Below, one piece after another: positions 45,471 through 62,685 of a stretch of DNA of 64,000 nucleotides. The stretch's first letter is position 1; every line of letters begins with the position of its first letter. A program made the position numbers and the translations under genes. Origin of the DNA: Vulcanimicrobium alpinum (GTDB lineage: Bacteria; Vulcanimicrobiota; Vulcanimicrobiia; Vulcanimicrobiales; Vulcanimicrobiaceae); NCBI RefSeq assembly GCF_027923555.1, contig NZ_AP025523.1:248001-312000 (forward strand). The letters run 5' to 3'. The notes beneath the pieces are model-generated. The model searched no databases. It saw only the letters and a program-made list of their open reading frames with translations, and was not told the origin of the DNA.

Positions 45471-46835
45471 CTGAACGACCGCCGCGGCCTGCCGGCCGTC
45501 CACCGGGTTCTCGACGAACCGCGCGTCGCGCGGTTCGTCGTGCTCTTGGGGGCGCCGACGGCGAAGCGGCACGTCGTCGCCGCGCTCGACGCGGCGCGTG
45601 CAGCCGAGGTAACGCCGCCGGCATCCGCCGTCGTGGATGATGCGCTCGTCCGCCTCGCGGGCGAAGCGCAGCGCGGTCTCGTCGGCGTGCTGAACGGCAC
45701 CGGCGTTCTGCTGCACACCAACCTCGGGCGCGCACCGCTCGCCGCGGCGGCGCTCGACGCGATCGCGGCGGCCGCCGGCGGCGCGTCGAATCTGGAGTTC
45801 GATCTGACGACCGGGACGCGCGGCTCGCGCTACGAGCGGCTCGACGCGCTGCTGCGCGCGGTCACCGGTGCGGAAGCGAGCCTCGTGGTGAACAACTGCG
45901 CGGCGGCGGTCCTGCTCGTCCTCGACACCTTCGCGCGCGCGCCCGACGGCTCCGCGCGTGAGGTGATCGTCGCGCGTGGTCAGCTCGTCGAGATCGGCGG
46001 CGGCTTTCGCCTTCCCGACGTGCTCGCGCGCAGCGGCGCGCGGCTCGTCGAGGTCGGAGCGACCAACAAGGTTCGCATCGCCGACTACGCGCACGCGCTC
46101 TCGCCGCGCACCGCGCTGCTGATGCGCGCGCATCCCTCGAACTATCGCATCGAGGGCTTCACCGAAGACGTCACCGCACCGGAACTCGTCGCGCTGGGCG
46201 CGCGCGCCGGCGTTCCGGTGATCGAAGATCTCGGCAGCGGCGCGCTGGAAGATGTGCGTCCGTACGGACTGCCCGGCGAGCGCACCGTCGCCGAAGCGGT
46301 CTCCGACGGCGTCGATCTGGTGACGTTCTCCGCCGACAAACTGCTGGGCGGACCGCAGGCGGGGATCATCGCCGGTCGCCGCGCCGCCATCGCACGCCTG
46401 CGCGCGAACCCGCTGCTGCGCGCTCTGCGCGTCGGGTCGGTGACGATCGCCGCGCTCGGCGCGACGCTGCGCCTGCACGTCGAGGGTACCGTGCGCGAAC
46501 AAATCCCGCTCTACCGCATGCTCGCGACGCCGATCGACGCGCTGCGCGCGCGCGCCGAGGCGCTGGTCGCGCGTGTGGACGGGCTCGATGTGCACGTCGC
46601 GGGACACGAAGGCTACGCCGGCGGCGGAACGCTCCCGCTCGCTCCGCTGCCCTCGATCGCGCTCGCATGGCGGCCCGCGGACGGCGACGTCAATGCGGCT
46701 GCGGCACGCCTGCGCGCCGGCGATCCGCCGGTGGTTGCGCGGATCGACGGCGATGCGGTTGCGATCGACCTGCGCACGATTCCGCCCGCACGCGACGCCG
46801 ACCTCGCGGCGGCGCTGCTCGCCGCCGCGCGCTGA
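45471..46835 (+). CDS. selA: L-seryl-tRNA(Sec) selenium transferase
   Basis: About 454 residues. The N-terminal domain motif (RRGLPAVHRVLDEPRVARFV) lies upstream of any ATG/GTG; CTG 45471 is the best start, 8 nt after the trxA stop, with GTG 45540 as a shorter fallback. Family tracts: VLNGTGVLLHTNLGRAPLAA, SNLEFDLTTGTRGSRYERLD, VVNNCAAAVLLVL and the PLP-lysine motif VTFSADKLLGGPQAGIIAGR. It turns Ser-tRNA(Sec) into Sec-tRNA(Sec) using selenophosphate. Confidence 0.94.
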   Translation: MNDRRGLPAVHRVLDEPRVARFVVLLGAPTAKRHVVAALDAARAAEVTPPASAVVDDALVRLAGEAQRGLVGVLNGTGVLLHTNLGRAPLAAAALDAIAAAAGGASNLEFDLTTGTRGSRYERLDALLRAVTGAEASLVVNNCAAAVLLVLDTFARAPDGSAREVIVARGQLVEIGGGFRLPDVLARSGARLVEVGATNKVRIADYAHALSPRTALLMRAHPSNYRIEGFTEDVTAPELVALGARAGVPVIEDLGSGALEDVRPYGLPGERTVAEAVSDGVDLVTFSADKLLGGPQAGIIAGRRAAIARLRANPLLRALRVGSVTIAALGATLRLHVEGTVREQIPLYRMLATPIDALRARAEALVARVDGLDVHVAGHEGYAGGGTLPLAPLPSIALAWRPADGDVNAAAARLRAGDPPVVARIDGDAVAIDLRTIPPARDADLAAALLAAAR

Positions 46836-46840
46836 ACCCC

Positions 46841-48691
46841 ATGCACGTCGTCGGGACCGCAGGCCATGTCGATCACGGAAAGTCGTCGCTGGTGCAGGCG
46901 CTCACCGGGACCGATCCCGATCGCTGGATCGAAGAGAAACTGCGCGGGATGACGCTCGACCTCGGCTTCGCGCACTTGCGTTTCCCCGACGGGGTCGAAG
47001 CCGGGATCGTCGACGTCCCCGGCCACGAACGTTTCGTGCACAACATGCTCGCCGGCGCGGCGGGGATGGAGCTGCTGCTGCTCGTCGTCGCCGCGAACGA
47101 AGGCGTGATGCCGCAGACGCTCGAGCATCTCGCGATCCTCGCGCATCTCGACGTACGGCGCGCGATCGTCGTGCTCGCCAAACGCGATCTCGTCGACGAC
47201 GCCGAACTCCGCGCGGTCGAGGAGGAGATCCGGGCTGCGCTGGCCTCGACGATCGTCGCCGGCGCCCCGTTCGTCGCCGTCTCGACGCGGACCGGCGAGG
47301 GCGTCGAGACCCTGCGCGACGCGATCCACGACGCGCTCGTCGCGCTTCCCGAGCGCGCATCCGACGCACCGGTCTTCCTTCCGGTCGATCGCGTCTTCGC
47401 GATCTCTGGTCGCGGAACGGTGGTGACCGGGACGCTCGTGCAGGGGACGATCCGCGCCGGCGACACGCTGCAGATCGACGAACCGGCGCGCGAGGTCCGC
47501 GTACGGTCGCTGCAGGTGTTCGGCGAGTCGCGCCAGGCGGTCTCAGCCGGCGCGCGCGTCGCCGTGAACGTCGCCGGTGTCGATGTCGCCGAACTGCATC
47601 GCGGCGCCGTGCTCGCCGATCGCGCCGTCGGGGTCGCAAACGCGATGCGCGTGCGCTTTCGCACCGCGGGCGCGCCGCTGCGCCGGCGGACGCCCGTGCG
47701 CGCGCATCTCGGCGCCGCGGAGATCCTCGGCACGCTGGTCTTCGACACCGCGCCGGCGGCGGAGGAGACGAGCGATGCAACGCTGTTTCTGCGCCGCGCC
47801 GCCGCGACGTATCCGGGCGAGGCGTTCGTCGCACGCGCCCTTTCGCCGAAGGCGCTGCTCGGCGGCGGGACGATCGGGAGCACCGCGACCGCGCAGATCG
47901 GCGACACCGCGCAGAGCGAGCGCGAGACGATCCTGGCCGTGCTCGGCGCGTCGGGTCTCGCGCCGCTGGGTTCGGCGGAAATCGCCGCGCGCGCGAACGT
48001 GCGCGAGGAGCGCGCGGAGGAACTGCTCGCCGAGCTGGCCGCGCGCGGGACGGTGCGGCGTCTGCAGAAGCCCGTCACGTATCTCGGCGGCGCCGCCGCC
48101 GACGAACTGACCGCGCGGATCGCGGCGATCCTCGCGCGTCGCGAGGCTGAGACGCCGTGGGTGCTCGGCGTCACGTCGCTCGCGCTCGCGCGCGAGCTCG
48201 CGGTCGACGAACCGCTGCTGCTCCGCGTGCTCGCCGCCGACGCCGAGGACGGGCGCATCGTCGCGCGAGTCGGATATTACGCGACGCTCGCCCATCGCCC
48301 GCAGTTGACCAGCGAGCAGTACGCGTTCTTCGACCGCGCCGCCGCCGCCGACGCGGCGGCGACGCTCGTTCCGGTCGAGCTCGAGACGCTCGTCGCCGAA
48401 ATCAAGCGCACGAAGATCCCCGGCTTGGGACAAGCCTTCGACACGCTGCTGGCGACCGGCGCGCTGGTGAAGGTCGGCGCCGACGTCTACCGCGGCTCGC
48501 AGATCGCGGAGATTCGCCGCCGGCTCGAGGCGTCGATCCGGCGCGACGGTCCGATCACGATGGCGCGCTTTCGCGACGCGGTGGGGACGACGCGCAAGTA
48601 CGCCGTCCCGCTGATGGAATGGTTCGACGCGACCGGGGTGACGGTGCGCGACGGCGACGTCCGGTCGCTGCGCGGCGCTACGCGACGCTGA
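46841..48691 (+). CDS. selB: Selenocysteine-specific elongation factor
   Basis: 616 residues from ATG 46841, 5 nt after selA. G-domain: GTAGHVDHGKSSL, DVPGHERFVHNML and VLAKRDLVDD (a NKxD variant). Domains 2-3 (VFAISGRGTVVTGTLVQGTI) are followed by four winged-helix repeats for SECIS RNA, with the usual end RFRDAVGTTRKYAVPLMEWF. It delivers Sec-tRNA to UGA codons. No selC tRNA or selenoprotein was found in the window. Confidence 0.95.
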   Translation: MHVVGTAGHVDHGKSSLVQALTGTDPDRWIEEKLRGMTLDLGFAHLRFPDGVEAGIVDVPGHERFVHNMLAGAAGMELLLLVVAANEGVMPQTLEHLAILAHLDVRRAIVVLAKRDLVDDAELRAVEEEIRAALASTIVAGAPFVAVSTRTGEGVETLRDAIHDALVALPERASDAPVFLPVDRVFAISGRGTVVTGTLVQGTIRAGDTLQIDEPAREVRVRSLQVFGESRQAVSAGARVAVNVAGVDVAELHRGAVLADRAVGVANAMRVRFRTAGAPLRRRTPVRAHLGAAEILGTLVFDTAPAAEETSDATLFLRRAAATYPGEAFVARALSPKALLGGGTIGSTATAQIGDTAQSERETILAVLGASGLAPLGSAEIAARANVREERAEELLAELAARGTVRRLQKPVTYLGGAAADELTARIAAILARREAETPWVLGVTSLALARELAVDEPLLLRVLAADAEDGRIVARVGYYATLAHRPQLTSEQYAFFDRAAAADAAATLVPVELETLVAEIKRTKIPGLGQAFDTLLATGALVKVGADVYRGSQIAEIRRRLEASIRRDGPITMARFRDAVGTTRKYAVPLMEWFDATGVTVRDGDVRSLRGATRR

Positions 48692-49886
48692 TCGTCGAAC
48701 GGTAGTCCGGGGCGAAGATCTCCTTGGGGATCATCGCGTGCACGCCGTTGATCACGTTGACCATCTGCGTCACGCGGAAGTCGACGCCGATCGACGCGAG
48801 GCTGTAGGATTCGTCGCGGGTCAGCCCGGCGCGCTCGTGCAGGAACGCGATCGTCTGACGCAGCGCGATCCGCAGCGCTTCGTTCAAGTGCGTGTCCATC
48901 CCCAGCGCGATCCAGTGCGTCGGCGTCTCGGCGAACGGCCACGTCCAGCCGGCGTTCTTGTGGACGATCACCTGCATGCGCACCTCGCGCATCCCGGTCT
49001 CGATCGCGGTGATGTTCACTTCGCCGTCGGCCTGCACCGCGTGTGAGTCGCCGGTGAAGATCAGGGCGCCGGGATGCGTCACCGGGACGAACAGCGACGA
49101 TCCCGCGGTGAGGTCTTTGAGATCGATGTTGCCGCCGAAGCGGCCGGGTGCGACCGAACTCACCGGCACGTCGCCCGCGGGCGCGACGCCGAGCGTCCCC
49201 TGAAACGGCTTGAGCGCGAGCCGGATGCGGTCGTTGAAATAGACGTACCCGTCGTCCGCCGAGAGATCGAAATAGCGGACGTGTCCGTGCGCGAACTCGG
49301 CGTGCAGCGAGCCGGTAACGAGCGCGCCCGGGTTGTGAAAGTTGGCGCCGAAATCGATCGTCTCGAGGCGCAGCATCCGCAGCTGCAGGACGTCGCCCGG
49401 CATCGCTCCGCGTACGAAGATCGGCCCGATGATGCTGTGCACGCCGCGCCCCGGAATCGCGCGCCGCATCGCCGCGAGCGCGTCGGCGCTCACGCCGGGC
49501 TGCAGCCGGTTCGAGAAATGCGTCCAGGTGTTCTCGTAGACGACGACGTCGCCAGAGTCGATCGTCGCGACCGGCGCGGCGTTCGGATCGAAGATCCCCT
49601 GCGCGACCGTGTCGACGGTCGACGGAATGCGGTGCGTGCGTCCCAGCGCGACGGGAGCGCTGGTCGAGGTCCACGTCGTCTCCGCGTCGCCGGTCGACGG
49701 CGACGCCGCCGTCGGGTCGGCGGGCGCGGCGCGTCCGTCGCGCAGCGCTTCGTAGCGCGACTCGATCGCGCCGGCGTCGGACGCGTCGTGCGCGCGCAGA
49801 CGCGCGCGGCGGGCATCGGAGGCCCACGCATCGCGGACCTCGGCGGAGACGCGCGCGATCCCGCCTTCGTCGCTGCAGCCGAACAT
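48678..49886 (-). CDS. Acetamidase/formamidase family protein
   Basis: 402 residues from ATG 49884-49886. Residues ~90-400 carry the FmdA/AmdA fold (FDPNAAPVATIDSGDVVVYE, GRGVHSIIGPIFVRGAMPGD, HVRYFDLSADDGYVYFNDRI, PVTHPGALIFTGDSHAVQAD). The first ~90 residues are an unusual acidic/Ala-rich extension. Family members hydrolyse short amides. It is last in the leftward operon gntR-SAF-amidase, 7 bp after the SAF gene, so its substrate may belong to the 2-hydroxyacyl pathway on the other side. The 3' end overlaps selB by 14 bp. Confidence 0.88.
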   Translation of the reverse strand: MFGCSDEGGIARVSAEVRDAWASDARRARLRAHDASDAGAIESRYEALRDGRAAPADPTAASPSTGDAETTWTSTSAPVALGRTHRIPSTVDTVAQGIFDPNAAPVATIDSGDVVVYENTWTHFSNRLQPGVSADALAAMRRAIPGRGVHSIIGPIFVRGAMPGDVLQLRMLRLETIDFGANFHNPGALVTGSLHAEFAHGHVRYFDLSADDGYVYFNDRIRLALKPFQGTLGVAPAGDVPVSSVAPGRFGGNIDLKDLTAGSSLFVPVTHPGALIFTGDSHAVQADGEVNITAIETGMREVRMQVIVHKNAGWTWPFAETPTHWIALGMDTHLNEALRIALRQTIAFLHERAGLTRDESYSLASIGVDFRVTQMVNVINGVHAMIPKEIFAPDYRSTISVA

Positions 49887-49893
49887 CGCGAAG

Positions 49894-51252
49894 TTAGACG
49901 GCGGCCGCGACGAGCGCGTCCTGTTCGCGGCGCAGTTTCCAGAGGAACGACGACTCGTCGAAGGTGACGTCGGCTTCGCCGATCGGATGGTCGGCCTCGA
50001 CGTCGCGCTGCAGCCGCAACCCGTGCGCGAGCCCCATCGGAACGAGGCGTCGTTCGCGCGCGCGCGCAGCCGGGACGCTGGTGCCGTAGACGGCGTAGCC
50101 GCCTTCGCCGTCGATGATCTCGCCGGCGCGCATCGCGCGCCGCGTCGCGCAGACGACTTCCGCACGATGGCCCGCGAACGGCGCGCCGGTAGGCTCTCCG
50201 CGCAGCGCGACGGACGCCACCGAGACGCCGATCTCCAGCCCGATCAAATGGTACGGACGCCACAGCGCGGTATACCGGCCGCTCTGATCGGTCGACATCC
50301 CGTACTCGCCGAAGCAGCGCTGTGCGTACGCGCTCTCGGAGGTGAACGTCACGTAGACGCCCCAGCGCAGGTGGTTCTCGACGAACGATTCGTCTTCGCG
50401 CACGCACGAGACGACGTCGGCGATCCCGGCGCGCGGCAGAATTCCGCCTTCACTGCGCGGCCGCATCAGCGTCGCCAGATCGTTCACCGAGGCGGGCGCG
50501 AACGTCAGCCCTTCCTCGGCGACGTCCAGCCCCGTGGCATTCGCGACGGCGACCATCTCGATCGCCGACTTCGTCCCGTCGAGAAACGAGTTGAACATCT
50601 TCGGATTGAAGCCGCCGGTCGCGATCTGCTCGGGGGTGAAGCCGTAGTAGCCGAACGCGGTGTCGGGCGTCGAACGCCGGTAGACCGGGGCGAATTTCGT
50701 TCCCTTCCCGGCGGCGACGACCTCGAAGCCGCAGGTGCGCGCCCAGTCGACGAGCTCGCAGATGATCGCCGGCTGATCGCCGTACGCCATCGAGTAGACC
50801 GCGCCGTGCTTGCGCGCGTGCGCGTGCAGCAAGGGCCCGACGACGACGTCGGCTTCCACCGTCACCATCACGACGTGGACGCCGCGTTCGAGCGCGCGAT
50901 AGGCGTGGAGCGCGCCGGCTTCTTCATGCCCGGTCGCTTCGATCAGCACGTCGATCTCGCACGCCGCCGCGACTTCGCCGCTCTCGACGAGCGCGACGCG
51001 CCCGGCGCGCGCCGTGTCGTTCGCCGTGTTCGCGTCGCGCGCGAGCGCGAACGCGTCCGCGCTCCACCCGGCGCTGACGGCGGCTCTGCGCGCGCGCCCC
51101 GCGTCGAGATCGGCGAGGACGCACAGCTGCACGCCGGGCATCAAGCGCAGCTGCGCGAGGATCATCGTGCCGAACTTGCCGGCGCCGACGAGGCCGACGC
51201 GGATCGGACGGCCGGCGTCGTCACGTGCCGCGAGTGCGCGAGCGAGGTTCAT
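49894..51252 (-). CDS. NAD(P)-binding homoserine-dehydrogenase-like protein with SAF domain
   Basis: 452 residues from ATG 51250-51252, overlapping gntR's stop (ATGA). N-terminal Rossmann motif (RVGLVGAGKFGTMILAQLRL) then a dehydrogenase-like domain (EIDVLIEATGHEEAGALHAY, VHVVMVTVEADVVVGPLLHA, SMAYGDQPAIICELVDWART). The C-terminal SAF-type domain contains RAMRAGEIIDGEGGYAVYG. Proteins of this kind occur in carbon-catabolic clusters and their exact reactions are mostly unknown. It is placed to act on an aldehyde or carbonyl product of the neighbouring pathway. Confidence 0.85.
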   Translation of the reverse strand: MNLARALAARDDAGRPIRVGLVGAGKFGTMILAQLRLMPGVQLCVLADLDAGRARRAAVSAGWSADAFALARDANTANDTARAGRVALVESGEVAAACEIDVLIEATGHEEAGALHAYRALERGVHVVMVTVEADVVVGPLLHAHARKHGAVYSMAYGDQPAIICELVDWARTCGFEVVAAGKGTKFAPVYRRSTPDTAFGYYGFTPEQIATGGFNPKMFNSFLDGTKSAIEMVAVANATGLDVAEEGLTFAPASVNDLATLMRPRSEGGILPRAGIADVVSCVREDESFVENHLRWGVYVTFTSESAYAQRCFGEYGMSTDQSGRYTALWRPYHLIGLEIGVSVASVALRGEPTGAPFAGHRAEVVCATRRAMRAGEIIDGEGGYAVYGTSVPAARARERRLVPMGLAHGLRLQRDVEADHPIGEADVTFDESSFLWKLRREQDALVAAAV

Positions 51253-51917
51253 CGTGCGTTCGTCTCCCGAAGGTGGCTGAGGATGCGGTCGCGGCTTAAG
51301 ACGAGGTGACACTCGAGGCGCGCGACGGCGGCCTCGCCGTCGCCGTGCGCGACGGCGCTCGCGATCGCGGCATGATCGTCCCAAATCCCCGGCGGATACG
51401 TTTCGATCTCCAAGTATGCGTGCATCACGCGCATGATCTGCGACCACTGGCCGCCGAGCGCGGCGACGAGGTGCGGGTTGTCGGATGCGGCGGCGAGCTC
51501 GGCGTGATAGTCGCGGTCGAGGTGGAAGAGCGTCGTCAGATCGCCGGCGGCGATCGCGTGCATCGCCTCCTCGCTGCGCTGCTGCGTCGCTTCACGCAAG
51601 TCGGCGTAGCGCTCGGCCGCGCGCCGCAGGGCCAGCGATTCGAGCGCCAAGCGCAGGTCGTAGAGGTCGACGACGTCCTTGGGACCCAGGGGCCGCACGA
51701 TCGCGCCGCGGTTGGGGCTCATCAGCACCAGCCCCTCGCCCTCCAGCCGCCGCAGCGCTTCGCGCAGGGGAATACGGCTGATGCCGAACGCATCCGCGAG
51801 TTCGTCCTGGACGAGACGCTCGCCGGGCCGGTACCGGCCGGTCAGAATCGCCTCCCGGAGGGAGTCGATCACGCCCTCAGAGCGCGTTTCCGGGCTGCGC
51901 GGCTTCATGATGGCCAT
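51249..51917 (-). CDS. GntR-family regulator with FCD domain
   Basis: 222 residues from ATG 51915-51917. Winged helix (DSLREAILTGRYRPGERLVQ, DELADAFGISRIPLREALRR) and all-helical FCD ligand domain with metal-ligand-like residues (HLDRDYHAELAAASDNPHLV, DDHAAIASAVAHGD, LECHLVLSRDRI). FCD regulators sense small carboxylates or acyl-CoA pathway intermediates. The gene sits between two divergent operons, each with a TTGTATACRA operator, so it probably represses both and itself. The ATG is about 5 nt after the -10-like TATACA, suggesting a near-leaderless message. Confidence 0.93.
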   Translation of the reverse strand: MAIMKPRSPETRSEGVIDSLREAILTGRYRPGERLVQDELADAFGISRIPLREALRRLEGEGLVLMSPNRGAIVRPLGPKDVVDLYDLRLALESLALRRAAERYADLREATQQRSEEAMHAIAAGDLTTLFHLDRDYHAELAAASDNPHLVAALGGQWSQIMRVMHAYLEIETYPPGIWDDHAAIASAVAHGDGEAAVARLECHLVLSRDRILSHLRETNAR

Positions 51918-51921
51918 GCGC

Positions 51922-51931
51922 TTGTATACGA
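51922..51931. promoter_or_regulatory. GntR operator O1 (TTGTATACGA)
   Basis: One mismatch from the perfect palindrome TTGTATACAA at 51966. Read leftward it contains TATACA just before the gntR start. Confidence 0.65.
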
Positions 51932-51945
51932 GTTTTCTTCGAGGA

Positions 51946-51974
51946 TTGCCTTTTCTAGCAAAGTATTGTATACA
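51946..51974 (+). promoter_or_regulatory. Promoter of the mutase operon
   Basis: TTGCCT (51946-51951) and TATACA (51969-51974) are 17 bp apart. The -10 lies inside operator O2, so regulator binding would block polymerase. Confidence 0.6.
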
Positions 51975-51975
51975 A
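51966..51975. promoter_or_regulatory. GntR operator O2 (TTGTATACAA)
   Basis: Perfect 10-bp palindrome of the kind bound by FCD-type GntR regulators, centred 44 bp from O1 and 21 bp upstream of the mutase start. Confidence 0.75.
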
Positions 51976-51996
51976 TCTGACAAGGGAGACCGCCTG

Positions 51997-53676
51997 ATGC
52001 AGACGCCCGAGAAAATTCGTTCCGTCGCCGGAGACCGCGAGCAGTGGGAGCAGCTGACCCTGCTGTCGTTCATGGAGCGCCGCCCCGAGGCGCGCCCGGT
52101 GTTCCGGACCCTCGGCGGCCTGCCGCACGAACGCGTCTATACGCCCGAGCACATCGCGCTCGACTACGGCCGCGATCTCGGCTTCCCCGGCGCCTTCCCG
52201 TACACGCGCGGGCCCTACCCGACGATGTATCGCGCGCAGCCGTGGACGATGCGCCAGATCGCCGGCTTCGGGACCGCCGACGACACCAACGCGCGCTTCC
52301 GCTACCTGATCGCGCAAGGGCAAACCGGGATCTCGACCGACTTCGACATGCCGACCCTGATGGGCTACGACTCCGACGACGTGCGCAGCGAAGGTGAGGT
52401 CGGCCGCGAGGGCGTCGCGATCGACAGCGTCGACGACATGCACGATCTCTACGCCGATATCGATCTCGAGAAGATCAGCGTCTCGATGACGATCAATCCA
52501 TCGGCGTGGATCCTCTTCGCGATGTACCTCACCGTCGCCGACGAGCGCGGCTTCGACCGCAACAAGCTCTCCGGGACGATTCAGAACGACATCATCAAAG
52601 AGTACGTCTCGCAGAAAGAGTGGGTCTATCCGCCGCGCCCGGCGATGCGGATCGTGCGCGACTCGATCGTCTACTCGACGCAGAACCTGCCGCGCTACAA
52701 CCCCGTCAACGTCAGCGGCTACCACACGCGCGAAGCCGGCAGCACCGCGATTCAGGAAGTGGCGTTCACGCTCGCGGCGGGGATGGCGTACGTCGAGGAC
52801 GTCGTGCGTGCCGGCGTCGACGTCGACGACTTCGCACCGCGGCTATCGTTCTTCTTCGTCTCTCAGATCGATTTCTTGGAAGAGGTCGCGAAATTCCGCG
52901 CCGCGCGGCGCGTGTGGGCGCGGCTGATGAAGGAACGCTTCGGCGCGAAGAAAGCCGAGTCGATGCGCCTGCGCTTCCATTGCCAGACCGCCGGCGTCTC
53001 GTGCACCGCGCGCGAACCGCTCAACAACATCGCGCGCACCGCGATCGAAGGGTTGGCGGCGGTGCTGGGCGGCGCGCAGTCGCTGCACACCAACGGCTAT
53101 GACGAAGCGCTCTCGATTCCGAGCGAGGCGGCGATGAAGATCGCGTTGCGCACGCAGCAGATCATCGCCGAGGAGACCGGCGTCGTCGGCACGATCGATC
53201 CGCTCGCCGGCTCCTACGCCGTCGAGTCGCTGACGAACCGGATCGAACAAGGGTGCTTCGATTACTTCGCCGAGATCGATAAGCGCGGTGGCGTCGTCAA
53301 GTGCATCGAGGACAACTTCTTTCAGATTGAACTCGCTGACGCGGCGTACGATCTGCATCGCCGCAAGGACGCGGGCGAACGCCACGTCGTCGGCGTCACG
53401 AAGTACCGCGACGACTCGGCGAACCCGCACGTCGAACTGCACCACGTCGACGAAGGCGCCGCAAACCGCCAGCTCGCGCGGCTCGCGAAAACCCGTGCCA
53501 AGCGCGACGGCGCGGCCGTGCAGCGCGCGCTCGACGAGATCGTGCGCGTCGCGCAGACCGACGAGAACATCATGCCCTCGACGCTCGCCGCCGTAAAGGC
53601 GCGCGCGACCGGCGGCGAGATCATCAATGCGCTGCGTCCCGTGTTCGGGACCTACGTCGAGACGCCGGTCTTTTGA
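51997..53676 (+). CDS. hcmA: B12-dependent 2-hydroxyisobutyryl-CoA mutase-type large subunit
   Basis: 559 residues from ATG 51997 with GGGAG upstream. It is the substrate-binding TIM-barrel subunit of the methylmalonyl-CoA mutase family, without the B12 domain. Pocket residues by motif alignment: in QPWTMRQIAGF Ile88 replaces the Tyr (Tyr89) of methylmalonyl-CoA mutase; in GISTDFDMPTLMGYDSD Asp115 replaces Ala; in KEYVSQKEW Gln206 replaces the carboxylate-binding Arg207. These three match Ile90, Asp117 and Gln208 of the Aquincola HcmA. Expected reaction: 2-hydroxyisobutyryl-CoA to 3-hydroxybutyryl-CoA, or a related 2-hydroxyacyl-CoA. Confidence 0.88.
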   Translation: MQTPEKIRSVAGDREQWEQLTLLSFMERRPEARPVFRTLGGLPHERVYTPEHIALDYGRDLGFPGAFPYTRGPYPTMYRAQPWTMRQIAGFGTADDTNARFRYLIAQGQTGISTDFDMPTLMGYDSDDVRSEGEVGREGVAIDSVDDMHDLYADIDLEKISVSMTINPSAWILFAMYLTVADERGFDRNKLSGTIQNDIIKEYVSQKEWVYPPRPAMRIVRDSIVYSTQNLPRYNPVNVSGYHTREAGSTAIQEVAFTLAAGMAYVEDVVRAGVDVDDFAPRLSFFFVSQIDFLEEVAKFRAARRVWARLMKERFGAKKAESMRLRFHCQTAGVSCTAREPLNNIARTAIEGLAAVLGGAQSLHTNGYDEALSIPSEAAMKIALRTQQIIAEETGVVGTIDPLAGSYAVESLTNRIEQGCFDYFAEIDKRGGVVKCIEDNFFQIELADAAYDLHRRKDAGERHVVGVTKYRDDSANPHVELHHVDEGAANRQLARLAKTRAKRDGAAVQRALDEIVRVAQTDENIMPSTLAAVKARATGGEIINALRPVFGTYVETPVF

Positions 53677-54593
53677 TCTCGCACCGGGTGCACCGCGACC
53701 TGGCGCGGGCAATCTCCAGCGTCGAGAACGGGATCGTCGAGCTGCCCGCGGCGCTCGCGCGCCTCGCGCATCTCGGCCACGTCCCGCCGGCGCATCACGC
53801 GGAGGTCATCGGGATCACCGGGCCGCCCGGCGCCGGAAAATCGACGCTCGTCGACCGTCTGATCGAGGGGATCCGCGCCGGCGGCGAGAGCGTCGCGGTA
53901 ATCGCGGTCGATCCGTCGTCGCCGTTCACGCAGGGCGCGGTGCTCGGCGATCGCGTGCGGATGCAGCGGCATGCCGGCGACAACGGCGTGTTCATCCGGA
54001 GCATGGCCTCGCGCGAGGGCGGCGGCGGTCTCGCGCCGGCGACGCGCGACGCGGTGCGCCTCGCCGAAGCGGCGGGGTTCGACGTCGTGATCGTCGAGAC
54101 GGTCGGCGTCGGACAGATCGAACTGGAAGTCGTCGCGGTCGCCGATCAGATCGTCGTCGTCACCGTCCCCGCGCTCGGCGATTCGGTGCAGACGATCAAA
54201 GCCGGGCTCACCGAGATCGCCGACATCTTCGTCGTCAACATGGCCGACCGCCCCGGCGCGAACCGCACCGCGCTCGACCTCAAGCACATGGTGCGCGAAG
54301 GTCAGCGCGACATCCCGGTCCTGCAGACGGTGGCGCAGGACGGCACGGGCGTCGCCGACCTCCTCGCGGCGATCCTTTCGCGCCGCGGCGGCAGCGAGGT
54401 CAACGCCGTGCGCGCCGTACGCTTTGAGGTCGTGCGGCGCGCGCGCGACCGTGCGGTGATCGCGGCGCTTGCTTCACTCGACTCTCCCGACGGCAGCGCC
54501 GTGCTCGACCGCGTGCGCGCCCGCGAACTTTCCCGCAACGACGCGATCGACGCGCTGCTCGCGATCTACGGAGGACCCGTTCATGCCCATTAA
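53673..54593 (+). CDS. meaH: MeaB/ArgK-type G-protein chaperone for the mutase (MeaH-like)
   Basis: 306 residues from TTG 53673, overlapping the mutase stop (TTGA). Walker [21 protein letters not shown], switch region [40 protein letters not shown] and the [18 protein letters not shown] motif are typical of MeaB. These GTPases load adenosylcobalamin into the mutase and rescue it after inactivation. Its location between the two mutase subunit genes ties it to this enzyme. The last 11 bp overlap the B12-subunit gene. Confidence 0.92.
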
Positions 54594-55014
54594 GGTGCTC
54601 GTCGCCAAACCCGGCCTCGACGGCCACGACCGCGGCGCGAAGATCGTCGCGCGCGCCCTTCGCGACGCCGGGATGGAAGTCGTGTACACGGGCCTGCATC
54701 AGACGCCGGAGATGATCGTCAACGCGGCGATTCAGGAGGACGTCGACGTCGTCGGCGTGAGCATCCTCTCGGGCGCGCACATGACGATCTTCCCGAAGAT
54801 CATGGATCTGCTGCGCGAGCGCGAGGTCGACGATATCGTCGTCATCGGCGGCGGCGTGATCCAAGAGCCCGACATTCCGAAGCTCAAGGAGATCGGCGTG
54901 CGCGAGGTCTTCAACGCCGAAGCGTCGACGCAGGATCTGATCGACGGCATCGAGCGGATCGTCGCCGAGTACGGCCGCGACCGCACGCGCCGCGAGGCGG
55001 CCGGGGCGAGTTGA
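54583..55014 (+). CDS. hcmB: B12-binding small subunit of the acyl-CoA mutase
   Basis: 143 residues from ATG 54583 with GGAGG upstream. It is the stand-alone cobalamin domain: DxHxxG as Asp13-x-His15-x-x-Gly18 in [12 protein letters not shown] (base-off ligand His15), then [11 protein letters not shown] and [18 protein letters not shown] that wrap the nucleotide tail. Separate large and small subunits are the rule for 2-hydroxyisobutyryl- and isobutyryl-CoA mutases. Paired with 51997-53676. Confidence 0.93.
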
Positions 55015-56756
55015 CCGCCGCGGCGCCGCTGCGCACCTCGACGGCGAGCGCAGCAGAATACCTGGCGCGCGCGCTGCACGCGCGCGGCGTCCGGCGCGTC
55101 TTCGGGCTCGAAGGCGGCCACGTCCAGCCGCTGTGGGATCACGTCGCGCGCCTGGGCATCGCGATCGTGGACGTGCGCGACGAGCGCGCCGCCGTGCACA
55201 TGGCGCACGCGCACGCGGAACTCACCGGAACGGTCGGGATCGCGATGGTGACGGCCGGCCCGGGCGTGACGAATACGGTGACGGCGGTCGCGAACGCGAC
55301 CACCGCCGGCGTCCCCGTCGTGGTGATCGGCGGAGCGCCGCCGATGCCTCAGGACTACCGCGGTCCGCTGCAAGGGATCCCGCAGGTCGATATCCTCGCC
55401 CCGATCGCGCGCTACGCGCGCACCGTGCGCAACGCCGACCTCGTCGTCGGCGAGCTCGACCGTGCGATCTCCGCGGCCGAGGGCGAGTACGGCGATCGCG
55501 GCGCGAGCTACATCGAGTTTCCGACCGACGTGCTGCGCACCGAGGTGCCGCGCCAGGTCGTGCTCGACGAATTCGTCGCGCCGCGCGCGCCGCGCAGGAT
55601 CGCGCCCGATCCGAGCGCCGTCGCGGCGGCCGTCGAGCGGCTGTGGTCGGTGCGCCGGCCCGTCGTCATCACCGGGCGCGGCGCGCGCGGCGCAGCGAGC
55701 GAACTGCTCGCTCTGCTCGATGCGCTCGGCGCCGTCTACCTCGACACGCAGGAGAGCCGCGGTCTCGTCCCCGAGTCGCATCCGTCGGTCGTCGGCGCGA
55801 TGCGCGGCGCGGTGATGGGCCAGGCCGACGTCGTGATCACGGTGGGGCGCAAGCTCGACTATCAACTCGGCTACGGATCGCCGGCGGTCTTTCCGCACGC
55901 GACGTTCGTGCGGATCGGCGACGGCGTCGGCGAGATCGGCGACAACCGCCGCGGCGCGCCGGAGATCTTTGCGACGCCGGCGCTCGCGCTCGCCGCGATC
56001 GTCGAGGCGGCGCGGGGACGCGCGCCGGCTGCAGACCGTGACTGGGCCGGCGATCTGCGGCGCTCGCACGTCGAGCGCGCGCAGGCCTACGGCGCGAAGC
56101 TGGCGCAGGCGCCGTCGGGCGCCGACGGACGGATGCATCCGAACCGCATCTTCGCGGCGATCCGCGCCTGCGTTCCCGACGACGCGATCGCGATCGCCGA
56201 CGGCGGCGACATCCTCAGCTTCGCGCGGCTCGGTTTGACGCAAGCGACGTACCTCGATTCCGGGACGTTCGGATGTCTGGGCGTCGGCGTGCCGTTCGCA
56301 GTCGCCGCTGCGCTCGCGCATCCCGAGCGCACCGTGATCTCGGTGAACGGCGACGGCGCATTCGGCTTCAACGCGATGGAGATCGACACGGCGGTCCGCC
56401 ACGGCGCGCGCGCCGTCTTCACCGTCGCCAACAACGCGGCGTGGAACATCGAGCGCTACGACCAGATGGTGAACTACGAAGGCCGCATCGCCGGCACCGA
56501 ACTGCGCGACAGTGACTACGCGGGATTGGCGAAGGCGCTGGGCGCGTACGCCGAGCGCGTCGACGACCCGTCCGATCTGGAAGGTGCGCTGCGGCGCGCG
56601 ATGTCGCACGCGCCGGCGCTGCTCGACGTCAAGATCACGCGCGACGCGGTCTCGTCCGACGCCGGGAGAGGCCTGGGGTACGTCCGGCTCTATCAGCCGC
56701 TGACGGCGTGGGACGACGCCGAACGCAAACGCCGCGACGACGGAGGTCTCCGATGA
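55011..56756 (+). CDS. Thiamine-diphosphate enzyme, probable 2-hydroxyacyl-CoA lyase (oxalyl-CoA decarboxylase family)
   Basis: 581 residues from TTG 55011 (TTGA overlap). Pyrimidine domain with activating Glu58 in [19 protein letters not shown], central domain ([20 protein letters not shown]), and diphosphate domain with G-D-G at 447-449 ([20 protein letters not shown]) and the NN of [16 protein letters not shown]. Context argues for a 2-hydroxyacyl-CoA lyase, cleaving e.g. 2-hydroxyisobutyryl-CoA to acetone and formyl-CoA, as described in an actinobacterium. Oxalyl-CoA decarboxylase or an acetolactate-synthase-like enzyme are alternatives. Confidence 0.72.
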
Positions 56757-58207
56757 GCGTCTCGACTGCCGCCGGGCGGATGGAAGCGTGGTCGTTTCCG
56801 CCGCGCATCGACGCTTCGTATATCCCGCCGAACGATCAGCGCTACTGGCATCCCGTCCGCGAGACGATGCCGCCCGACGAGCGCGACGCCGCGATCGCCG
56901 TGCGCCTGCGCGAGGTGATGCGCCACGCGTACAAGAGCTCGGCGTTCTACAAAAAGAAGTGGGACGATGCGGGGATCGACCCAGAGTCGATCCGCTCGCT
57001 CGAGGATTTCGAACGCGTCCCGGTCGTGACCAAGGCGGAACTGCGTGCGTCGCAGGCGGCGCACGAACCGTACGGCGACTACCTGTGCGTCCCCGAGTCG
57101 GAGATCCATCACATCCACGGCACGTCGGGCACCACCGGAAAGCCGACCGCGTTCGCGATCGGACGCAACGACTGGCAAACGATCGGCGAGAACCACGCGC
57201 GCATCCTGTGGGGGATGGGCTTCCGTCCCGGCGACACGATCTTCTTCGGCGCGATCTTCAGCCTGTATTTGGGTTCGTGGGGCGCGATGTCCGGCGCGGA
57301 GCGGATGAAGGCGCGCAGTTTCCCGTTCGGTGCGGGCGCGCAGGGAATGACCGCGCGCGCCGCACAGTGGCTCGCAATGGTGAAGCCCGCCGGCTTCTAC
57401 GGCACGCCGTCGTACGCGCTGCGTCTCGCTGAGGTCGCACGCGAAGAAGGGTACGATCCGCGCGCGTTCGGCCTGCGCACGCTGTTCTTCTCCGGTGAAC
57501 CGGGAGCGTCGATCCCGTCGGTACGCGATCGCATCGAAAACGAGTTCGGGGCACGCGTGATCGACACGGGGACGATGGCCGAGATGACGCCGTTCATGTC
57601 GGCGGCGGGGAGCGCAGAGTCGCACGAAGGGATGCTGCTCTGGCAGGACATGGTCTACCACGAGGTGTGCGATCCCGCAACCTACGCGCGCGTCCCGTAC
57701 GGCGAGCAGGGGACGCCGGTGTACACGCATCTGGAACGGACGTCGCAGCCGATGATCCGGCTGCTCTCCAACGATCTCACGCATTGGGTGATGGAAGAGA
57801 ACCCGTGCGGGCGTACTTATCCGCGGCTGCCGAAGGGCGTCCACGGCCGCATCGACGACATGTTCCAGATCCGCGGCGAAAACGTGTATCCCTCGGAGAT
57901 CGACAACGTCTGCAACGCGATCGCCGGCTACGGCGGCGAGCACCGCATCCACATCAGCCGTGCGCAGACGATGGACGAACTGCTGGTCCGCGCCGAGTAC
58001 GACGCGACGGTCGCCGCCGGCGGCGACGCAGCGATCGCGGCGTTCCGCCGCACGCTCGGCGATCAGCTCCGCAAAGTGCTGGGCGTCGGCGCCAACGTCG
58101 AACCTGTCCCCCCGAACACCTACGAACGCACCGACTTCAAAGCCCGCCGCGTCGTCGACGACCGCGACCTCTACGGCCAAGTCTACCAAAGCACCCACCC
58201 GCACTAA
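56753..58207 (+). CDS. PaaK-type acyl-CoA ligase (adenylate-forming), probably for 2-hydroxyacids
   Basis: 484 residues from ATG 56753, overlapping the previous stop (ATGA) with GGAGGT upstream. The P-loop is HGTSGTTGKPTAF; the hinge and C-terminal domain (RIDDMFQIRGENVYPSEIDN) follow phenylacetate-CoA ligase. N-terminal VMRHAYKSSAFYKKKWDDAG is typical of the PaaK branch. It would activate the free acid with ATP and CoA for the mutase and lyase. The stop is 2 bp before the IS5-type end, so the operon ends here. Confidence 0.85.
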   Translation: MSVSTAAGRMEAWSFPPRIDASYIPPNDQRYWHPVRETMPPDERDAAIAVRLREVMRHAYKSSAFYKKKWDDAGIDPESIRSLEDFERVPVVTKAELRASQAAHEPYGDYLCVPESEIHHIHGTSGTTGKPTAFAIGRNDWQTIGENHARILWGMGFRPGDTIFFGAIFSLYLGSWGAMSGAERMKARSFPFGAGAQGMTARAAQWLAMVKPAGFYGTPSYALRLAEVAREEGYDPRAFGLRTLFFSGEPGASIPSVRDRIENEFGARVIDTGTMAEMTPFMSAAGSAESHEGMLLWQDMVYHEVCDPATYARVPYGEQGTPVYTHLERTSQPMIRLLSNDLTHWVMEENPCGRTYPRLPKGVHGRIDDMFQIRGENVYPSEIDNVCNAIAGYGGEHRIHISRAQTMDELLVRAEYDATVAAGGDAAIAAFRRTLGDQLRKVLGVGANVEPVPPNTYERTDFKARRVVDDRDLYGQVYQSTHPH

Positions 58208-58339: not shown

Positions 58340-59539
58340 TTAGGCTGCTCGTCTGTCTCGTTTTACGGTCGTTGCTTTCCATTCGAAGTATTCGGTCATG
58401 TCGAAGTAGGCTCGGCCTAACCATTCGTCGTTTTGCTCGGAGAGTAGCGCGCCGACCATGCGAATCGCCGCGGCGTCGTTTGGGAAGATGCGAATGACTT
58501 TCTCCCGGCGACGAATCTCTTCATTGAGCCGCTCTTGCATGTTGCTCGTGCGCAGTCGCCGGCGATATTTCTCCGGCAGCGGCAAGATCGCAAGCATGTC
58601 TTCGAACGCTCCTTCCAAGCACACGCACGACTTGGGCGCCGTTTCTGCGAAGCGGGCCATGAATTCCGCATATCGACGCTCGGCCTCTTTGCGATCAGTT
58701 GCGAGGAAGATCAGCCGAGCTGCAGCGGTTACGTTTTCCCGTTCTTTCTTGGGCGTGTGATCGAGCAAGTTCTTCATCACGTGGAACTGGCAACGCTGCC
58801 ACGTCGCGCTGACGAATTGCTTGGCGATCGCCTCACGCAAGCCCGAATGATTGTCGGAGACGGCAACGTCGACGCCGTGCAAGCCGCGTGCTTTGAGGCC
58901 GCAAAAGAACTCGTTCCACGTCGCAAAGCTCTCCGAATCGCCGATCGAAAGACCAAGGATCTCGCGGTATCCGTCAGCACGAATGCCGCTCGCGATGAGC
59001 AGCGCTTTGCTGACGACGCTCTTGTCGGTGCGCACCTTCGTGAAGAGCGCGTCAACGATGATGAATGGGTACGCTGCGTCGAGCCGGCGATTCAAGAATC
59101 CCGCGACCGGTTCGTTGAGTGCCTTCGTAAGGCGACTTACCGTCGATTTCGAAAACGACGTCCCGCAGAGGCCTTCGGTTATCCGCGTGACCTTCCGCGT
59201 CGAGACGCCGTTGACGACCATCTCCATCAGGCCCACGACGAAGGCTTGTTCGCTGCGGCGATAACGCTCGAAGATGTCGGTTGAGAAGCTGCCGTCGCGC
59301 GTCTGCGGCACGCGCAGGACCAGCGAGCCGACGCGGGTCGAGAGCTGTCGATCGCGATACCCATTTCGATAGCCCTCCCGTTCTTCACAGCGCTGGTACC
59401 GCTCGGCGCCCAGATGATCGCGCATCTGTGCCTCGAGCACTTGGTTGAGAATCACTTCGATGAGTTTGCCGAGCGCTGCCGGCTGATCGAGCAAAGCTGG
59501 AATCGCGTCGCGGGATAGGGTAAGATCGTAATCGGCCAC
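58340..59539 (-). CDS. IS256-family transposase, copy 1
   Basis: 399 residues from GTG 59537-59539 (MADYDLTLSRDAIPALLDQP). Mutator-type DDE residues are seen in IIVDALFTKVR, AVSDNHSGLREAI and MQERLNEEIRRREKV. It lacks six residues (AKPAAV) near the C-terminus compared with copies 2 and 3, outside the catalytic core. The frame is intact, but its 5' terminal repeat is now far away (63678), so the copy may no longer move. Confidence 0.92.
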   Translation of the reverse strand: MADYDLTLSRDAIPALLDQPAALGKLIEVILNQVLEAQMRDHLGAERYQRCEEREGYRNGYRDRQLSTRVGSLVLRVPQTRDGSFSTDIFERYRRSEQAFVVGLMEMVVNGVSTRKVTRITEGLCGTSFSKSTVSRLTKALNEPVAGFLNRRLDAAYPFIIVDALFTKVRTDKSVVSKALLIASGIRADGYREILGLSIGDSESFATWNEFFCGLKARGLHGVDVAVSDNHSGLREAIAKQFVSATWQRCQFHVMKNLLDHTPKKERENVTAAARLIFLATDRKEAERRYAEFMARFAETAPKSCVCLEGAFEDMLAILPLPEKYRRRLRTSNMQERLNEEIRRREKVIRIFPNDAAAIRMVGALLSEQNDEWLGRAYFDMTEYFEWKATTVKRDRRAA

Positions 59540-59618
59540 CGTTCCGGTCCTTTCGATTGAGGTGTTGAACAACGTCAATCTTCGAACCGGGGCGGTGGCT
59601 ACCCGCCCGCTCAATTTA

Positions 59619-60056: not shown

Positions 60057-61422
60057 AGTCAAGTCCCAAATCTGCTGTAATTCCGGTTCGTCGATCGCGT
60101 TAGTTAGGCTGCTCGTCTGTCTCGTTTTACGGCGGCCGGCTTGGCCACCGTCGTTGCTTTCCATTCGAAGTATTCGGTCATGTCGAAGTAGGCTCGGCCT
60201 AACCATTCGTCGTTTTGCTCGGAGAGTAGCGCGCCGACCATGCGAATCGCCGCGGCGTCGTTTGGGAAGATGCGAATGACTTTCTCCCGGCGACGAATCT
60301 CTTCATTGAGCCGCTCTTGCATGTTGCTCGTGCGCAGTCGCCGGCGATATTTCTCCGGCAGCGGCAAGATCGCAAGCATGTCTTCGAACGCTCCTTCCAA
60401 GCACACGCACGACTTGGGCGCCGTTTCTGCGAAGCGGGCCATGAATTCCGCATATCGACGCTCGGCCTCTTTGCGATCAGTTGCGAGGAAGATCAGCCGA
60501 GCTGCAGCGGTTACGTTTTCCCGTTCTTTCTTGGGCGCGTGATCGAGCAAGTTCTTCATCACGTGGAACTGGCAACGCTGCCACGTCGCGCCGACGAATT
60601 GCTTGGCGATCGCCTCGCGTAAGCCCGAGTGATTGTCGGAGACGGCAACGTCGACGCCGTGCAAGCCGCGCGCTTTGAGGCCGCGAAAGAACTCGTTCCA
60701 CGTCGCAAAGCTCTCCGAATCGCCGATCGAAAGACCAAGGATTTCGCGGTACCCGTCAGCGCGAATGCCGCTCGCGATGAGTAGTGCTTTGCTGACGACG
60801 CTCTTGTCGGTGCGCACCTTCGTAAAGAGCGCGTCAACGATGATGAATGGGTACGCTGCGTCGAGCCGGCGATTCAAGAATCCCGCGACCGGTTCGTCGA
60901 GTGCCTTCGTAAGGCGACTTACCGTCGATTTCGAAAACGACGTCCCGCAGAGGCCTTCGGTTATCCGCGTGACCTTCCGCGTCGAGACGCCGTTGACGAC
61001 CATCTCCATCAGGCCCACGACAAAGGCTTGTTCGCTGCGGCGATAACGCTCAAAGATGTCGGTTGAGAAGCTGCCGTCGCGCGTTTGCGGCACGCGCAGG
61101 ACCAGCGATCCGACGCGGGTCGAGAGCTGTCGATCGCGATACCCATTCCGATAGCCCTCCCGTTCTTGACAGCGTTCGTACCGCTCGGCGCCCAGATGAT
61201 CGCGCATCTGTGCCTCGAGCACTTGGTTGAGAATCACTTCGACGAGTTTGCCGAGCGCCGCCGGCTGATCAAGCAAAGCTGGAATCGCGTCGCGGGATAG
61301 GGTAAGATCGTAATCGGCCACCGTTTCGGTCCTTTCGATTGAGGTGTTGAACAACGTCAATCTTCGAACCGGGGCGGTGGCTACCCGCCCGCTCAATTTA
61401 CATCAATTATAGGGACTCGGCC
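60057..61422 (-). mobile_element. IS256 copy 2, innermost and complete
   Basis: 1366 bp with both ends, AGTCAAGTCCC at 60057 and GGGACTCGGCC ending at 61422, flanked by TCGAAGAT duplications. It sits in the 5' leader of copy 3 in the opposite direction and is the youngest insertion in the nest. Confidence 0.9.
60104..61321 (-). CDS. IS256-family transposase, copy 2
   Basis: 405 residues from GTG 61319-61321, preceded by AAAGGACC. Same DDE landmarks as copy 1 and a C-terminus VAKPAAVKRDRRAA without the deletion. Both terminal repeats are close and intact, so this copy is the best candidate for an active element. A few scattered substitutions separate it from copy 3. Confidence 0.94.
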   Translation of the reverse strand: MADYDLTLSRDAIPALLDQPAALGKLVEVILNQVLEAQMRDHLGAERYERCQEREGYRNGYRDRQLSTRVGSLVLRVPQTRDGSFSTDIFERYRRSEQAFVVGLMEMVVNGVSTRKVTRITEGLCGTSFSKSTVSRLTKALDEPVAGFLNRRLDAAYPFIIVDALFTKVRTDKSVVSKALLIASGIRADGYREILGLSIGDSESFATWNEFFRGLKARGLHGVDVAVSDNHSGLREAIAKQFVGATWQRCQFHVMKNLLDHAPKKERENVTAAARLIFLATDRKEAERRYAEFMARFAETAPKSCVCLEGAFEDMLAILPLPEKYRRRLRTSNMQERLNEEIRRREKVIRIFPNDAAAIRMVGALLSEQNDEWLGRAYFDMTEYFEWKATTVAKPAAVKRDRRAA

Positions 61423-61467: not shown

Positions 61468-62685
61468 GTGGCCGATTACGATCTTACCCTATCCCGCGAC
61501 GCGATTCCAGCGTTGCTCGATCAACCTGCGGCGCTCGGGAAGCTCGTCGAAACGATTTTGAACCAAGTGCTCGAGGCGCAGATGCGCGATCATCTGGGCG
61601 CCGAGCGGTACGAACGCTGTCAAGAACGGGAGGGCTATCGGAATGGGTATCGCGATCGACAGCTCTCGACCCGCGTCGGATCGCTGGTCCTGCGCGTGCC
61701 GCAGACGCGCGACGGCAGCTTCTCAACCGACATCTTCGAGCGTTATCGCCGCAGCGAACAAGCCTTCGTCGTGGGCCTGATGGAGATGGTCGTCAACGGC
61801 GTCTCGACGCGGAAGGTCACGCGGATAACCGAAGGCCTCTGCGGGACGTCGTTTTCGAAATCGACGGTAAGTCGCCTTACGAAGGCACTCAACGAACCGG
61901 TCGCGGGATTCTTGAATCGCCGGCTCGACGCAGCGTACCCGTTCATCATCGTTGACGCGCTCTTCACGAAGGTGCGCACCGACAAGAGCGTCGTCAGCAA
62001 AGCGCTGCTCATCGCGAGCGGCATTCGTGCTGACGGATACCGCGAGATCCTTGGTCTTTCGATCGGCGATTCGGAGAGCTTTGCGACGTGGAACGAGTTC
62101 TTTTGCGGCCTCAAAGCACGCGGCTTGCACGGCGTCGACGTTGCCGTCTCCGACAATCATTCGGGCTTGCGTGAGGCGATCGCCAAGCAATTCGTCAGCG
62201 CGACGTGGCAGCGCTGCCAGTTCCACGTGATGAAGAACTTGCTCGATCACACGCCCAAGAAAGAACGGGAAAACGTAACCGCTGCAGCTCGGCTGATCTT
62301 CCTCGCAACTGATCGCAAAGAGGCCGAGCGTCGATATGCGGAATTCATGGCCCGCTTCGCAGAAACGGCGCCCAAGTCGTGCGTGTGCTTGGAAGGAGCG
62401 TTCGAAGACATGCTTGCGATCTTGCCGCTGCCGGAGAAATATCGTCGGCGACTGCGCACGAGCAACATGCAAGAGCGGCTCAATGAAGAGATTCGTCGCC
62501 GGGAGAAAGTCATTCGCATTTTCCCAAACGACGCCGCAGCGATTCGCATGGTCGGCGCGTTACTCTCCGAGCAAAACGACGAATGGTTAAGCCGAGCCTA
62601 CTTCGACATGACCGAATACTTCGAATGGAAAGCAACGACGGTGGCCAAGCCGGCCGCCGTAAAACGAGACAGACGAGCAGCCTAA
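61468..62685 (+). CDS. IS256-family transposase, copy 3
   Basis: 405 residues from GTG 61468 with AAAGGACC upstream. DDE landmarks are as in copies 1 and 2 (VDALFTKVR, DNHSGL, LNEEIRRRE). The coding frame is intact. Its 5' terminal repeat is separated by copy 2, so movement would need the distant end at 59994. Confidence 0.94.
   Translation: MADYDLTLSRDAIPALLDQPAALGKLVETILNQVLEAQMRDHLGAERYERCQEREGYRNGYRDRQLSTRVGSLVLRVPQTRDGSFSTDIFERYRRSEQAFVVGLMEMVVNGVSTRKVTRITEGLCGTSFSKSTVSRLTKALNEPVAGFLNRRLDAAYPFIIVDALFTKVRTDKSVVSKALLIASGIRADGYREILGLSIGDSESFATWNEFFCGLKARGLHGVDVAVSDNHSGLREAIAKQFVSATWQRCQFHVMKNLLDHTPKKERENVTAAARLIFLATDRKEAERRYAEFMARFAETAPKSCVCLEGAFEDMLAILPLPEKYRRRLRTSNMQERLNEEIRRREKVIRIFPNDAAAIRMVGALLSEQNDEWLSRAYFDMTEYFEWKATTVAKPAAVKRDRRAA

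Follow-up and report, generated by a model that had tools for sequence, protein, structure and literature searches.

The window, by which we mean the whole stretch of 64,000 nucleotides analysed here, contains a leftward gntR gene and a rightward operon headed by an acyl-CoA mutase gene, separated by a 79-bp gap (51918-51996) that lies between the gntR ATG (51917) and the mutase ATG (51997). The genes of the locus and the elements proposed for the gap are the following.

48678-49889, minus strand: FmdA/AmdA-type amidase, start approximate (Pfam FmdA_AmdA 97.5 bits)
49894-51252, minus strand: SAF/DRL-type NAD-dependent oxidoreductase (DRL_cat 198.2 bits), its start overlapping the gntR stop (ATGA)
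51249-51917, minus strand: gntR, regulator of 222 aa with a GntR winged helix-turn-helix (70.3 bits) and an FCD domain (Pfam FCD 76.5 bits)
51922-51931, no strand: gntR-side candidate operator TTGTATACGA, imperfect, 4 nt from the gntR ATG and overlapping a possible leftward -10
51946-51951, plus strand: candidate rightward -35, TTGCCT, 4/6 matches to TTGACA, 17 bp from TATACA and midway between the operators
51965-51976, no strand: operon-side candidate operator ATTGTATACAAT, a perfect 12-bp palindrome overlapping the candidate rightward -10
51982-51988, plus strand: Shine-Dalgarno-like AAGGGAG of the mutase gene, proposed from sequence
51997-53676, plus strand: hcmA-like large subunit of 2-hydroxyisobutyryl-CoA mutase (PDB 4r3u 732.6 bits)
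53673-54593, plus strand: MeaB-type mutase-associated GTPase (TIGR00750 255.6 bits, above cut-off)
54580-55014, plus strand: hcmB-like B12-binding small subunit (TIGR00640 152.5 bits, above cut-off)
55011-56756, plus strand: TPP-type 2-hydroxyacyl-CoA lyase (NF058623 996.8 bits, cut-off 600; PDB 7pt1 678.5 bits)
56750-58207, plus strand: hcl-like 2-hydroxyisobutyryl-CoA ligase, start codon uncertain (PDB 6hdw 717.9 bits)

The best structure matches of the mutase, lyase and ligase indicated that what the preliminary description had called a mutase/lyase pathway is the 2-hydroxyisobutyrate pathway. The mutase was closer to 2-hydroxyisobutyryl-CoA mutase (HCM) than to methylmalonyl-CoA mutase (MCM), with 732.6 bits for 4r3u against 463.2 bits for the best MCM chain, and it had the active-site stretches RQIAGFG and STDFD in common with 4r3u, the human MCM counterparts being RQYAGFS and SVAFD; we take the Ile and Asp that replace Tyr and Ala to be diagnostic of HCM. 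The ligase likewise scored 717.9 bits with 6hdw but only 215.8 with phenylacetate-CoA ligase, and the lyase passed the test for the actinobacterial type of 2-hydroxyacyl-CoA lyase (NF058623). Homology of the amidase in relatives starts near residue 93 of its 495-aa ORF. By eye, the operon is directly followed by three near-identical transposase-like ORFs (58340-59614, 60104-61396 and 61468-62685) and by a fourth that differs from them (62755-63663). selA- and selB-like ORFs, also recognised by eye, are localised near the locus at 45540-48691 of the window, and homologues of one or both occur near the locus in several relatives; a selenium-dependent formate dehydrogenase would suit the release of formyl-CoA.

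Two TTGTATACRA sites had been described at 51922 and 51966, between gntR and the mutase operon and 44 bp apart centre to centre, and both 10-mers were found there, with centres at 51926.5 and 51970.5, so that the spacing is exact. The operon-side 10-mer, TTGTATACAA, occupies 51966-51975, within the 12-bp palindrome. When the 64-kb window was scanned for TTGTATACRA with up to one mismatch, the four listed matches corresponded to the same two places on both strands (shuffle mean 0.52), and nothing was found beyond them. The genome-wide scan that the preliminary description had called for gave two exact matches to TTGTATACNA in the 3,508,363 bp of the genome, both in the gntR/mutase gap, where a first-order model of the window composition expects 0.04 TTGTATACAA and about 0.6 TTGTATACNA per genome. 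Matches with one mismatch elsewhere in the genome were few (756024, 2209985 and 3423046), and with up to two mismatches the motif was not commoner in the genome than its reversed control (92 vs 109 per strand). The lack of any other exact site in the genome fits a regulon of a single locus. The arrangement TTGT-AT-ACAA agrees with the operator palindrome TKGT-N2-3-ACMA of the FadR subfamily (consensus in PMC4494728), and the gap has the layout of a double-site divergon, with two sites between a regulator gene and a divergent operon. An extra half-site, ACAA at 51980-51983, is 11 bp away from the centre of the operon-side site and similar to additional boxes described in PMC4494728, but it was discarded as it is absent from the seven other divergons described below.

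Both domains of the regulator were above cut-off (PF00392 and PF07729), which confirmed its assignment to the FCD subfamily of the GntR superfamily. Its predicted structure (pLDDT 90.6, both domains in the model) matched best AlkR (VanR) 9isw (Z 24.9, rmsd 2.0, 204 aligned); Atu1419 6z74 gave Z 17.0 (rmsd 5.3, 210 aligned) and FadR 1hw1 gave Z 16.2 (rmsd 8.9, 202 aligned). In the model the effector domain has six helices if 148-155 and 158-171 are taken as one kinked helix, and seven otherwise. The predicted metal-site residues D134, H138, H182 and H204 were invariant in 10 aligned sequences, and the recognition helix SRIPxREA together with the Asp-x3-His, His, His pattern was present in 12 of 12 relatives. 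As modelled, the regulator resembles VanR-group repressors of the FCD subfamily.

A search of 149 genomes of the phylum with gntR gave some match (E <= 0.001) in 57, and clear orthologues, 73-79% identical, in seven further genomes of the same genus; in all eight genomes with the orthologous regulator, that of the window included, gntR is divergent from the mutase gene. With a pattern that left the gap free, the operator pair turned up in eight of the 11 genus genomes, the same eight that have the orthologue, and the reversed control gave no match. The pair always spans 53 bp overall and 44 bp centre to centre (8/8), and no indel alters the 44 bp in a spacer whose pairwise identity among the eight divergons is 24-82%, with a mean of 47%. 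The three genus genomes without the pair (G120, G121 and G122) are also without the orthologous regulator, G121 having a relative 43% identical. The operon-side 12-bp palindrome is identical in the eight divergons.

TTGTATACAA was found at 11 places in the 11 genus genomes (about 43 Mb), two of them in G124, and by their coordinates all are just upstream of the orthologous mutase gene; G120, which has no orthologous mutase, has no TTGTATACAA either. The perfect site stands upstream of 10 of the 10 orthologous mutase genes of the genus and of none of the 15 paralogous ones, one of which has only 37 bp of upstream sequence. The reversed control of TTGTATACAA occurred at 25 places in the same 11 genomes, showing that some AT-rich 10-mers are commoner than simple composition models predict, and we therefore put the weight on conservation and not on expected counts. 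As a separate observation, 25 control places set against no TTGTATACAA outside the mutase promoter might reflect avoidance of stray operators. A single promoter could carry a 10-bp AT-rich palindrome by accident, but the view that the sites are chance AT-rich sequence in an intergenic gap is refuted by this conservation, as well as by their uniqueness and linkage, and we give it practically no credence.

The promoter assignments fared less evenly. A rightward -10 had been placed inside the operon-side site, 17 bp from TTGCCT, and this TTGCCT-17-TATACA arrangement is present; however, TATACA (51969-51974) is a weak -10 without the final T of a good one, the better-fitting TACAAT (51971-51976), likewise overlapped by the operator, is 19 bp away from TTGCCT, and a strict sigma-70 scan of 51700-52200 on both strands gave no promoter. 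Hexamers resembling a -35, with 4-5 of 6 matches, occur at the position of TTGCCT in five of the eight divergons. The leftward TATACA (51928-51923) ends 5 nt ahead of the gntR ATG (A at 51917), at the distance previously given, and the best leftward -35 candidate had 3/6 matches. It is thus plausible, judging from the sequence, that both operators overlie -10 elements. The presumed -10 falls within the operon-side site, whose conservation could therefore be due in part to the promoter. By eye, a purine-rich Shine-Dalgarno-like stretch precedes the mutase start in the eight divergons and none was seen immediately ahead of the gntR ATG, which is 4-6 nt from the gntR-side site in all eight; this short distance and the missing Shine-Dalgarno suggest that the gntR message is likely leaderless.

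The gntR-side site is less well preserved than its partner. Its GTATAC core is kept in the eight divergons, whereas the inner half-site is degenerate in seven (GA, GC or AC) and perfect in one, and its outer part, which is conserved, is the would-be leftward -10; furthermore, G121 and G122 have an operon-side site alone. From this it could be argued that the operator function belongs to the operon-side palindrome alone and that the gntR-side copy is mainly a -10 or start-region element, with no real autoregulation. We think this improbable: GTATAC is whole in 8/8, including a base outside the leftward hexamer; an ordinary -10 would not have to be one and the same non-consensus TATACA in each of the eight genomes; and the distance stays at 44 bp although the spacer has diverged strongly.

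The fixed 44 bp suggests either cooperation between the sites or back-to-back promoters that share one -35 position. Two dimers, or a tetramer like that of Atu1419, could form a cooperative unit on the pair, the distance being kept for protein-protein contact: the spacing is constant in 8/8, constant-distance divergons are a recognised class in the FadR subfamily (n = 29 of 100; PMC4494728), and the Atu1419 tetramer can hold two palindromes (PMC7797058). We regard cooperation as possible but rather doubtful, given that back-to-back promoters would also produce 44 bp, that this distance makes 4.2 helical turns of 10.5 bp and not a whole number, and that in other genomes the sites are 80 bp apart (G061), stand before separate units (G031) or are single (G121, G029 and G122). 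A bolder proposal, to which we give little weight, is that the distance is a selected device: the promoters would share the -35 position so that there is room for only one polymerase at a time, a pair of repressor dimers or a tetramer would bridge both -10 regions, gntR would be leaderless with its first codon at the operator edge, and the pathway would be fed by the SAF protein and amidase produced along with the regulator, for example with 2-hydroxyisobutyrate from its amide. If true, the locus would by itself hold both the sensor and the pathway for a natural source of 2-hydroxyisobutyrate in Eremiobacterota.

Rearranged loci gave further views of the palindrome. In G061, where the order is gntR, mutase, MeaB, small subunit and ligase, two AATGTATACATT sites precede gntR, 80 bp apart, and in G029 (gntR, mutase, small subunit, ligase, lyase) a single TGTATACAA does so; G031 has one ATTGTATACAAT before gntR-mutase and another before the lyase gene, and in G121, where gntR is last, one ATTGTATACAAT is found before the mutase. 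The palindrome thus heads the rearranged units, indicating that it follows transcription units and not one piece of DNA. G107 also has motif places, on a different contig from its lyase gene.

In G122 (L224, G122:C25) the mutase operon has the perfect operon-side palindrome, and a six-frame search at maximum sensitivity found no gntR in the 16 kb around it, so that the site is perhaps the target of a regulator encoded elsewhere or conserved on other grounds. GTATAC was present within 200 bp upstream of 6 of 17 other FCD genes of the phylum, whereas the rest of those loci has about 0.01 such sites per 200 bp, and it therefore looks like a trait of the group, with specificity probably coming from the outer bases and the context. 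Among those genes (L015-L032), L016 has an upstream TTGTATACAA. The G122 site and these similar sites would suit a different reader of the palindromes, for instance another FCD protein; this we consider very unlikely, as the genomes with the pair are precisely those in which the orthologous gntR and the mutase gene are divergent and as GTATAC was absent from the stretches examined upstream of the five other FCD genes of this genome.

A look beyond the phylum covered 80 named loci with related mutases. An FCD-GntR candidate was present in 16 of them, and only two of these 16 have the motif at the gene, L103 (an Eremiobacterota locus) and L105 (apparently from the same order as the genome of the window); a GTATAC core upstream of the FCD gene in L119 and L134 is no more than suggestive. 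Neither an FCD gene nor the motif was found in L104, also of Eremiobacterota, whose mutase is 75% identical. In Acidaminobacter (L159), TTGTATACAA lies about 800 bp upstream of the mutase and there is no FCD gene.

The suggestion that amidase, SAF protein and the mutase/lyase pathway form one regulon fits this genome, where the gntR and SAF genes overlap (ATGA), but not all of its relatives. A SAF homologue lies on the gntR side in six of the eight genomes, directly after gntR in five, and an amidase homologue does so in five, although some contigs end early. The lyase gene is within the mutase operon only in G000 and G125, the contigs of G123 and G127 ending too early to tell, and the other four (G119, G124, G126 and G128) have no lyase in the operon and a different ligase, about 52-54% identical to that of the window (86% in G125), so that lyase and ligase may have been exchanged together. 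With the lyase in the operon in only 2/8, the conserved target is the mutase operon.

Taken together, these results point, with a probability that we put at roughly 80%, to gntR coding for an autorepressed VanR-group repressor of 2-hydroxyisobutyrate catabolism, with the perfect site serving the operon and a weaker copy beside the start codon of the repressor's own gene. In the proposed mechanism, a dimer of the FCD GntR protein would bind the two GTATAC-centred palindromes, blocking RNA polymerase at the perfect site, which covers the probable -10 of the mutase-lyase-ligase operon, and repressing gntR more weakly from the degenerate copy 4 nt before its ATG; through the overlapping and following genes, this autorepression would extend to the SAF and amidase genes. 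The repressor would be released by an inducer, for which 2-hydroxyisobutyrate or its CoA ester is the likeliest candidate. That a dimeric FCD regulator shuts both promoters had been put forward in the preliminary description, and the FCD family, the pair in 8/8, the 11/11 copies at the mutase and a palindrome that tracks the rearrangements speak for it, while the promoters themselves gave no strict match.

Biologically, the regulator is very probably a catabolic repressor of the ordinary, autoregulated sort. Operons of this kind usually come with a GntR gene (PMC7176365), and one further example is found in PMC13188929; a search of the open-licence literature gave no operator for such a GntR regulator, a text search gave no paper on GntR in Eremiobacterota, and the literal motif appeared mostly in eukaryotic, primer and vector contexts. 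The present analysis offers a concrete, testable operator and regulon for the catabolism of 2-hydroxyisobutyrate through 2-hydroxyacyl-CoA lyase, a pathway of interest for one-carbon chemistry, and the regulator, its perfect and imperfect sites and the candidate inducer could make a compact 2-hydroxyisobutyrate sensor.

The hcm/rcm-hcl operons described in PMC7176365 also encode a mutase together with a G-protein chaperone and a ligase, and upstream of them lies a GntR gene in either orientation; in contrast, no operator appears in the available parts of that paper, and here the mutase and this type of lyase are in one operon. The same source reports that a lyase-ligase cluster was induced on 2-HIBA in an actinobacterium; among the rows listed, a lyase-ligase cluster related to ours and beside a GntR gene changed 23- to 39-fold on 2-HIBA vs acetone. 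In the FadR subfamily, Suvorova et al. (2015, PMC4494728) distinguish double-site divergons of constant distance, regarded as cooperative (n = 29 of 100), from separate ones (n = 71). These share with our locus the TKGT/ACMA boxes, a 2-nt centre in several groups and two sites between the regulator gene and a divergent operon, although in the accessible portions of that work this regulator/operon pair was not found and the phylum is absent from the taxonomy table.

Similar in design is Atu1419 of Agrobacterium fabrum (VanR group of the FCD subfamily; PDB 6z74, 6za0, 6za3 and 6za7), an autorepressor that recognises ATGTATACAT where it overlies -10 boxes (PMC7797058). Both systems have a GTATAC-centred 10-bp palindrome overlapping a -10 box (here a candidate one), an imperfect second site (there in one target) and a conserved Arg in helix 3, and autorepression together with repression of neighbouring catabolic genes is what we propose here; the proteins are 27-30% identical over the aligned part. 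They differ in that the Atu1419 sites are 190 bp and 109 bp apart and not 44 bp, the outer base pair is A/T and not T/A, the pathway is that of hydroxycinnamates, the metal site has Asn where ours has Asp, and a tetramer was shown there, whereas our regulator is known from sequence and model. AlkR (9isw), 24% identical to our regulator, binds ATTGTCAGACAAT over -10 regions (PMC12042122), again matched here by a candidate -10; its half-sites ATTGT/ACAAT are identical to ours, but its centre has 3 nt and not 2, one main site was footprinted and the effector is a long-chain acyl-CoA. The site of the window thus combines the half-sites of AlkR with the 2-nt centre of Atu1419.
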